From an uncultured Prevotellaceae bacterium (GTDB taxonomy: Bacteria; Bacteroidota; Bacteroidia; Bacteroidales; Bacteroidaceae): 64,000 nucleotides of DNA. The translations under genes were made by a program, and so were the position numbers. Below are positions 2,700 through 2,787 of the stretch, in pieces (the stretch's first letter is position 1; every line of letters starts with the position of its first letter). The notes under the pieces are model-generated. The model had not been told where the DNA came from. It did not search any database and saw only the letters and a program-made list of their open reading frames with translations. The stretch covers positions 1 to 64,000 of the forward strand of contig CAMJKP010000001.1 in NCBI GenBank assembly GCA_946406435.1, read 5' to 3'.

Positions 2700-2787
2700 C
2701 TCCATCGTTACTCCATATCAACTCCATATCAAGTCCATCGTTTCGATGGAGTATCTATGGAGAATTGATGGACAAGCGATGGAGAAA
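2700..2787. repeat. 8 x 11-bp phased inverted repeat in cassette leader, copy 1
   Basis: CTCCATCGTTA|CTCCATATCAA|CTCCATATCAA|GTCCATCGTTT|CGATGGAGTAT|CTATGGAGAAT|TGATGGACAAG|CGATGGAGAAA. Confidence 0.95.

Follow-up and report, generated by a model that had tools for sequence, protein, structure and literature searches.

What role could be played by eight consecutive 11-mers, four of them carrying TCCAT and the next four ATGGA, which stand in front of an Rhs cassette near the beginning of the 64,000-nucleotide stretch analysed here (the window) from an uncultured Prevotellaceae bacterium? The sequence-only reading had located them at 2700-2787, which is correct to within a few bases, and inspection of the letters confirmed the eight words, their exact 11-bp register and the flip at a central TTT. 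The ladder begins with TCCATCGTTAC at 2701, continues with TCCATATCAAC, TCCATATCAAG, TCCATCG-TTT-CGATGGA, GTATCTATGGA, GAATTGATGGA and CAAGCGATGGA, and is followed by GAAACC; TCAGAAGATAC precedes it at 2690. Beyond the 88 bp additional in-register units were recognized, namely TCCGAAGATAC and GCTCTTCC to the left of the ladder and TTCGGAG together with GGAAGAGC to its right. The central stem ends at 7 bp because the bases flanking it are G and G. From the pairing of the arms suggested earlier this central stem could be retained; full pairing could not, as the spacers and some of the words differ between the two arms.

The three other copies in the window (Table 1) each lie in the gap separating an immunity-type gene from the following Rhs fragment. 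The region 66-14187 is composed of promoterless Rhs C-terminal toxin cassettes in tandem, with small immunity-type genes downstream; ladders are present in four of the cassette gaps and absent from others, e.g. from the gap before 13060. In a profile search TIGR03696 was matched in four of the tested Rhs fragments, and the tip of one fragment is a CDI-type nuclease domain (CDI toxin PF21111). The -7 promoter box of Bacteroidota is TAnnTTTG, and no such box was found between ladder and cassette for the four window copies, which are atypical and best read as passengers of the Rhs cassette duplication. At gathering score Rfam gave two tRNAs only in the 64-kb window and no match to the ladder.

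Table 1. Positions of the ladders and of neighbouring features in the window.
Feature	Position	Strand	Details
Ladder copy 1	2701..2783	+	4 x TCCAT-type 11-mers, TTT centre 2741-2743, 4 x ATGGA-type 11-mers; strand is that of TTT
Outer shell unit of copy 1	2690..2700	+	TCAGAAGATAC (consensus TCCGAAGATAC), same 11-bp register
Core of copy 1	2734..2750	+	TCCATCG-TTT-CGATGGA; 7-bp stem, flanked by G and G (mismatch)
Ladder copy 2	4667..4749	+	next Rhs cassette; left outer units reach 4645
Ladder copy 3	7082..7164	+	next Rhs cassette; left outer units reach 7060
Ladder copy 4	10995..11077	+	right-arm words differ (GATGGACTAAC GATGGAGAAGT GATGGACTAAC); left outer units reach 10973
11-bp ladder, other word	58674..58712		ATGGGACTTAC x 3.5 (TCC on minus strand)
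11-bp ladder	28215..28251		CGCTACAAGTC-type units (TCCGCTACAAG register)
11-bp ladder	46803..46847		AGCGAAGGNAG units; same word as outer shell of TCCAT ladders
11-bp ladder without TCC	57216..57252		TAATATCGCAT units
Rhs-core fragment downstream of copy 1	2896..4014	+	372 aa, variable C-terminus; TIGR03696 68.6 bits
Terminator-like GC-rich inverted repeat, then T-run	2565..2621	+	between immunity-type gene and copy 1; 26-nt arms, 81% complementary

About 30 ladders were detected in this genome, most of them at unrelated loci. Three TCCAT words spaced 11 bp apart occur 16 times in the window (0 in 100 shuffles); the 3.37-Mb genome contains 111 such sets and a single instance of the reversed control pattern. 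The 4-mer autocorrelation, computed on 460 kb of this genome (77 kb ORF-free), reached 721 at lag 11 versus 208 at lag 10 and 250 at lag 12, and peaked again at 22 and 33. The 11-periodic signal on which the sequence-only reading had staked its proposal is strong across the genome and extends well past the paralogous copies of the window. TCC or GGA ladders of at least three units are nearly always intergenic rather than genic (17 vs 1 for TCC, 20 vs 1 for GGA), and the 11-bp phase is common to ladders built of very different words (TCCGTTGTAAG, TCCCATGTAAG, CTTCGCTCTTC, CACCGACTTTG, GCATTAATAAC and TCCAATTCAAG; see also Table 1). A few congeners have 11-bp arrays of their own words (TCCCTTTTAAC in G027, TCCAGTGTGAC in G015, TCCAGTACATG in G032), and most have essentially none. 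Arrays of short palindromes phased at 22 bp (TATACACGTTTGTATA, TGTTCGCGAACA, AGTAAAACATTACTTTTTACT) were noticed in G003, G027 and G032 (L092:11306, L092:19325, L081:1592, L095:30); they are possibly a related architecture, with alternating half-sites about every 11 bp. In G027 one of the 11-bp arrays (AGGAGTTAAAG, about 14 units, L152) directly adjoins a 22-bp palindrome array.

When 116 distinct ladders were aligned, all kept a strict 11-bp register with the unit consensus TCCATCGNTAC. From the outside inwards the left side consists of GCTCTTCC, TCCGAAGATAC and three units TCCATCGNTA(C/G), then comes the core TCCATCG-TTT-CGATGGA, and to the right of it stand three units G/C-N-A-N-C-GATGGA, TTCGGAG and GGAAGAGC; conservation fades gradually outwards over further 11-bp shells and there is no sharp terminus. 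The polarity is absolute: 193 strictly convergent TCC to GGA elements were counted over nine related rumen Prevotellaceae genomes (28, 19, 26, 34, 26, 31, 2, 4 and 23), and not one of the opposite order, GGA to TCC, in the same genomes. Among ladders of other words the TCC to GGA polarity prevails by 12 matches to 1. A two-block ladder with the same flip, in which CGACTTTGCA(C/T)-type units are followed by CGGAGGATCA-type units and the words are non-complementary, was seen in G015 (L162, L165) and in the present genome (L077:2717).

The position of the ladders relative to promoters was analysed with promoters taken as matches to the TAnnTTTG consensus, not as mapped starts, and with ORF-based, uncurated gene calls. 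In 89 of 116 flanks a sense box separates the ladder from the start codon (107 matches vs 17 antisense), for which reason a structured 5' RNA leader was rejected as the general reading. The sequence upstream of the ladders yielded just 12 matches, and six of these stand at a distance of 30 nt, which is the arrangement in the DUF6266 paralogs. It is only in these paralogs (L037, L038, L046, L140) that the ladder occupies a leader position, 30 nt downstream of the box. The RNA leader of the cassette that had been proposed at first does not agree with the many ladders situated between divergent promoters, nor with the window copies, which have no box toward the cassette; the argument from one turn of A-form RNA is not needed either, since DNA, too, makes roughly one turn in 11 bp. 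Of the three forms considered in the sequence-only reading (cruciform, protein-binding ladder, structured 5' RNA) it is the putative binding ladder that fits best.

With orthologs (by protein similarity only) and paralogs collapsed, the centre of the ladder is a median of 180 bp away from the -7 box (IQR 158-214). This distance varies less than randomly chosen positions within the gap would (P<0.0002, all 53). The result holds with a ceiling of 400 or 450 bp on the random positions, which imitates the limit of the search, and also in the 20 gaps of at least 450 bp (P 0.001-0.016). Moreover, the distance shows a periodicity of 11.0-11.25 bp (R=0.40 in 54 de-duplicated loci, P=0.005 allowing for the period scan); this phasing, which peaks at 11-11.25 and not at 10.5 bp, could be due in part to in-register outer units decaying towards the promoter. 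Ladders are found in divergent gaps in 36% of cases vs 25% of the background, and in convergent gaps in 10% vs 15%. The ladder at mraZ, for example, is located between two divergent promoters, 195 bp upstream of mraZ. Sequence inspection revealed no obvious shared function of the downstream genes, which include ilvE-, greA-, ilvD-, mraZ- and lptG-like genes and genes of secreted proteins.

The comparison with a close relative, G103, whose MraZ is 97% identical, illustrates how the element evolves. At least 12 of its 20 ladders share the gene neighbourhood of a ladder in the present genome, i.e. they occupy orthologous intergenic sites, where the cores are 75-90% identical, phase and polarity are kept and the unit words have been replaced. 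Replacement sometimes runs along a whole arm (GATGGA to TATGGA in L135 and L139), and the difference between L143 and L206 is one inserted unit. Among orthologs, 8 of 25 differences in the spacing between ladder and promoter are exact multiples of 11, where 2.3 are expected (P=0.001).

Based on these features we propose that the ladder might be a cis-acting, helically phased DNA docking ladder for a putative protein, with convergent blocks and a nucleoprotein complex upstream of the promoter, a reading to which we give about an even chance. About twelve phased half-sites of 11 bp would form a TCC-type and then a GGA-type block, which converge on a short A/T centre, and most likely each 11-bp unit would be occupied by one subunit of an oligomeric DNA-binding protein, so that four or more subunits would be aligned on one face of each arm. 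Arms pointing at each other would lead to a closed or bridged complex about 130-150 bp long, which, being situated about 180 bp upstream of promoters and often between two divergent ones, could act as a scaffold, silencer, activator or insulator. As the arms evolve, entire 11-bp units would be gained, lost or homogenised, whereby phase would be preserved. It is from the architecture, phase, polarity, copy number, conserved sites and upstream-of-promoter placement that we infer binding of a protein, one subunit per unit, and an effect on the promoter. It is odd, for one sequence-specific protein, that the words vary between ladders and between species.

The main rival to the docking ladder is a dispersed intergenic repeat family of REP/BIME or MITE type that has no particular part in regulation; it would have spread within a single clade and be tolerated in front of promoters, and slippage of units and gene conversion between copies would maintain its phase. 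We regard this as possible, if on balance unlikely. Its clade restriction would fit: the core pattern is present in at least eight other uncultured Prevotellaceae/Bacteroidales assemblies, several named as rumen samples (among the matches listed RUG14400, RUG14682, RUG12352, RUG14644, SRR12081301 bin.40, RGIG6920, RGIG8147 and UBA1710), seven of nine carriers have about 20-34 ladders per genome, and most congeners have no match. Likewise the unit-wise turnover with homogenised arms, the neighbouring genes of every kind and the TTT/AAA orientation, which flips between some orthologous ladders, are consistent with a dispersed repeat. There is also a precedent for minisatellite repeats in Bacteroidales, the MITE BrickBuilt of Porphyromonas gingivalis, which contains a 23-nt minisatellite and is present in 19 copies, with variation in unit number and some locations conserved between species (PMC4596501). 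BrickBuilt resembles the ladders as a Bacteroidales intergenic repeat family with varying unit numbers, but it is built of 23-nt direct repeats with a leader, a tail and IS5-like terminal repeats, and contains no 11-bp convergent ladder.

Against mere tolerance stand the conservation of sites between species, with no larger mobile unit seen, as well as the tight promoter distance of about 180 bp and the absolute polarity, neither of which would be expected of tolerated junk. A phage or viral origin was rejected because the core pattern is absent from 2.9 million viral contigs. REP, BIME and REPIN elements are, like the ladders, dispersed intergenic palindromic repeats in tens of copies, whereas the ladders have long phased arms, are placed upstream of promoters and are not accompanied by a RAYT in the same genome. 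The Y1 REP-associated transposase PF01797 gave no match in the present assembly (81% complete), in G027 or in G032, and two in G103; a REPIN/RAYT system was rejected for the present genome because of this lack. A REPIN is composed of two inverted short REP palindromes, while the arms of the ladders are runs of 11-bp units and not REP hairpins.

Next, the functional form might be a hairpin or cruciform of DNA or RNA, extruded for instance under supercoiling, with a period of 11 bp made up of a 7-bp stem and a 4x4 internal loop; this we hold to be improbable. The window copy folds far better than its shuffles (RNA -47.7 vs -25.8 kcal/mol, z -6.7; DNA z -6.2), although it folds well in either form because any such inverted repeat must. 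The words are complementary shell by shell, also in the outer shells where the words are different, the core stem is exactly 7 bp and uninterrupted in 77 of 96 elements, the adjacent pair is G.G or C.C in 80 of 96, and the DUF6266 copies lie downstream of their box. The covariation of all copies, recommended earlier as a check, did not bear this form out: no significant compensatory covariation was left once near-identical copies had been removed, the complementarity of the spacers between the arms is no higher than with shuffled partners, and the position next to the core is paired in 0.19 of cases vs 0.32 expected (57 pruned copies). The initially negative covariation (z -6.3) changed to -2.7 with 57 and to -1.4 with 37 copies as similar copies were pruned, and no information was gained with a cut-off of 80% identity, at which 14 sequences remained; since the signal weakens on pruning, our claim is limited to a conserved mismatch and no positive covariation. 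In addition, the change of whole arms in L135 and L139 took place without a matching change of all the left words, and the flip from TCC to GGA is kept in word families with non-complementary arms, L075 among them, which favours unit polarity on DNA over base-pairing. A near-perfect palindromic version, TCCATCGAATGTCCATCGAATCGATGGACATTCGATGGA, is present in several copies in G116 and G117 (JAFYAT, JAFZVY), therefore the imperfection of the arms is not universal.

A bidirectional terminator, be it an intrinsic hairpin or a Rho-utilisation ladder whose YC dinucleotides recur at 11-nt intervals, is very improbable and was rejected because convergent gaps are not enriched: TCC every 11 nt does resemble the spacing of Rho sites, and one ladder (L050) fills the gap between convergent stop codons 6 and 15 bp away, but it is divergent gaps that are preferred, the hairpin has no trailing T-run, and a separate terminator-like stem precedes the window ladder. 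At that stem (Table 1) the terminator consensus scan called no site under its stricter rule, and no rut sites in Prevotella were found in the papers searched.

That DNA can be read in tandem 11-bp steps has precedents, which we cite as analogies, and membership of the ladders in the CarH or ParR/parC family is not claimed. The photoreceptor CarH binds tandem 11-bp repeats near a promoter with one DNA-binding domain per repeat, as tetramers on three or four repeats (PMC9304148). The operators of CarH/CarA, which belong to the MerR family, have the form nnnnTnnACAn and share with the ladders the tandem 11-bp units on one face of the DNA; however, their word is different (the TnnACA motif is absent from the unit consensus of the ladders), and their arrays run in a single direction and overlap the promoter of one gene cluster, while the ladders have two convergent blocks, number about 30 in a genome and lie about 180 bp upstream. 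The parC locus of plasmid R1 contains two blocks of five repeats flanking the promoter. It is similar to the ladders as an array of 11-bp repeats, but it is a plasmid partition locus with direct repeats in both blocks and one copy per replicon. ParR of this plasmid requires at least two of the 11-bp repeats (PMC9426499).

Upstream of mraZ in the congeners (L098-L127) conserved GTGG-type boxes with a spacing of about 10 bp were observed beside a TATGTAWCTTTG-like promoter, as expected for the MraZ operator of the dcw cluster. These boxes, which are also present at the mraZ of the present genome, are like the ladders short phased direct repeats next to a promoter, but they have a 10-bp phase and GTGG/TGGG words and are found at mraZ in all congeners inspected. 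The ladder is not identical with them, as mraZ has its own boxes and the ladder is a separate element farther upstream.

In a broader sense, the ladders might represent an undescribed class of bacterial promoter-upstream elements, i.e. convergent phased 11-bp ladders whose words are re-invented in each species and in which an oligomeric, possibly chromatin-like protein would depend on phase and polarity (TCC...GGA) more strongly than on the exact word; we put this forward as a rather doubtful suggestion. The papers searched on 11-bp repeats in Prevotella or REP elements in Bacteroidetes contained nothing on the ladder element. If a protein assembles on the ladders, rumen Prevotellaceae would possess a genome-wide layer of promoter architecture not described in those papers, and the annotation of long intergenic palindromes in Bacteroidota, which could otherwise be mistaken for RNA structures or terminators, would change. 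Natural variants of the ladders in words, unit numbers and orthologous 11-bp spacing steps constitute a ready-made mutational series for helical phasing.

Other repeats of the window were also recorded. At 16987-18138 tandem repeats of 207/69 bp encode a BspA-like leucine-rich repeat protein of 485 aa, and the Rhs-core fragment just upstream of this gene (16406-16780) appears truncated. Other dispersed intergenic repeats of 7-8 bp (TTAGAGG/TCTAACCT and CTCTGCGTCTCTGCG-type) are located at 18489-18640, 22151-22251, 50835-50926 and 58509-58633.
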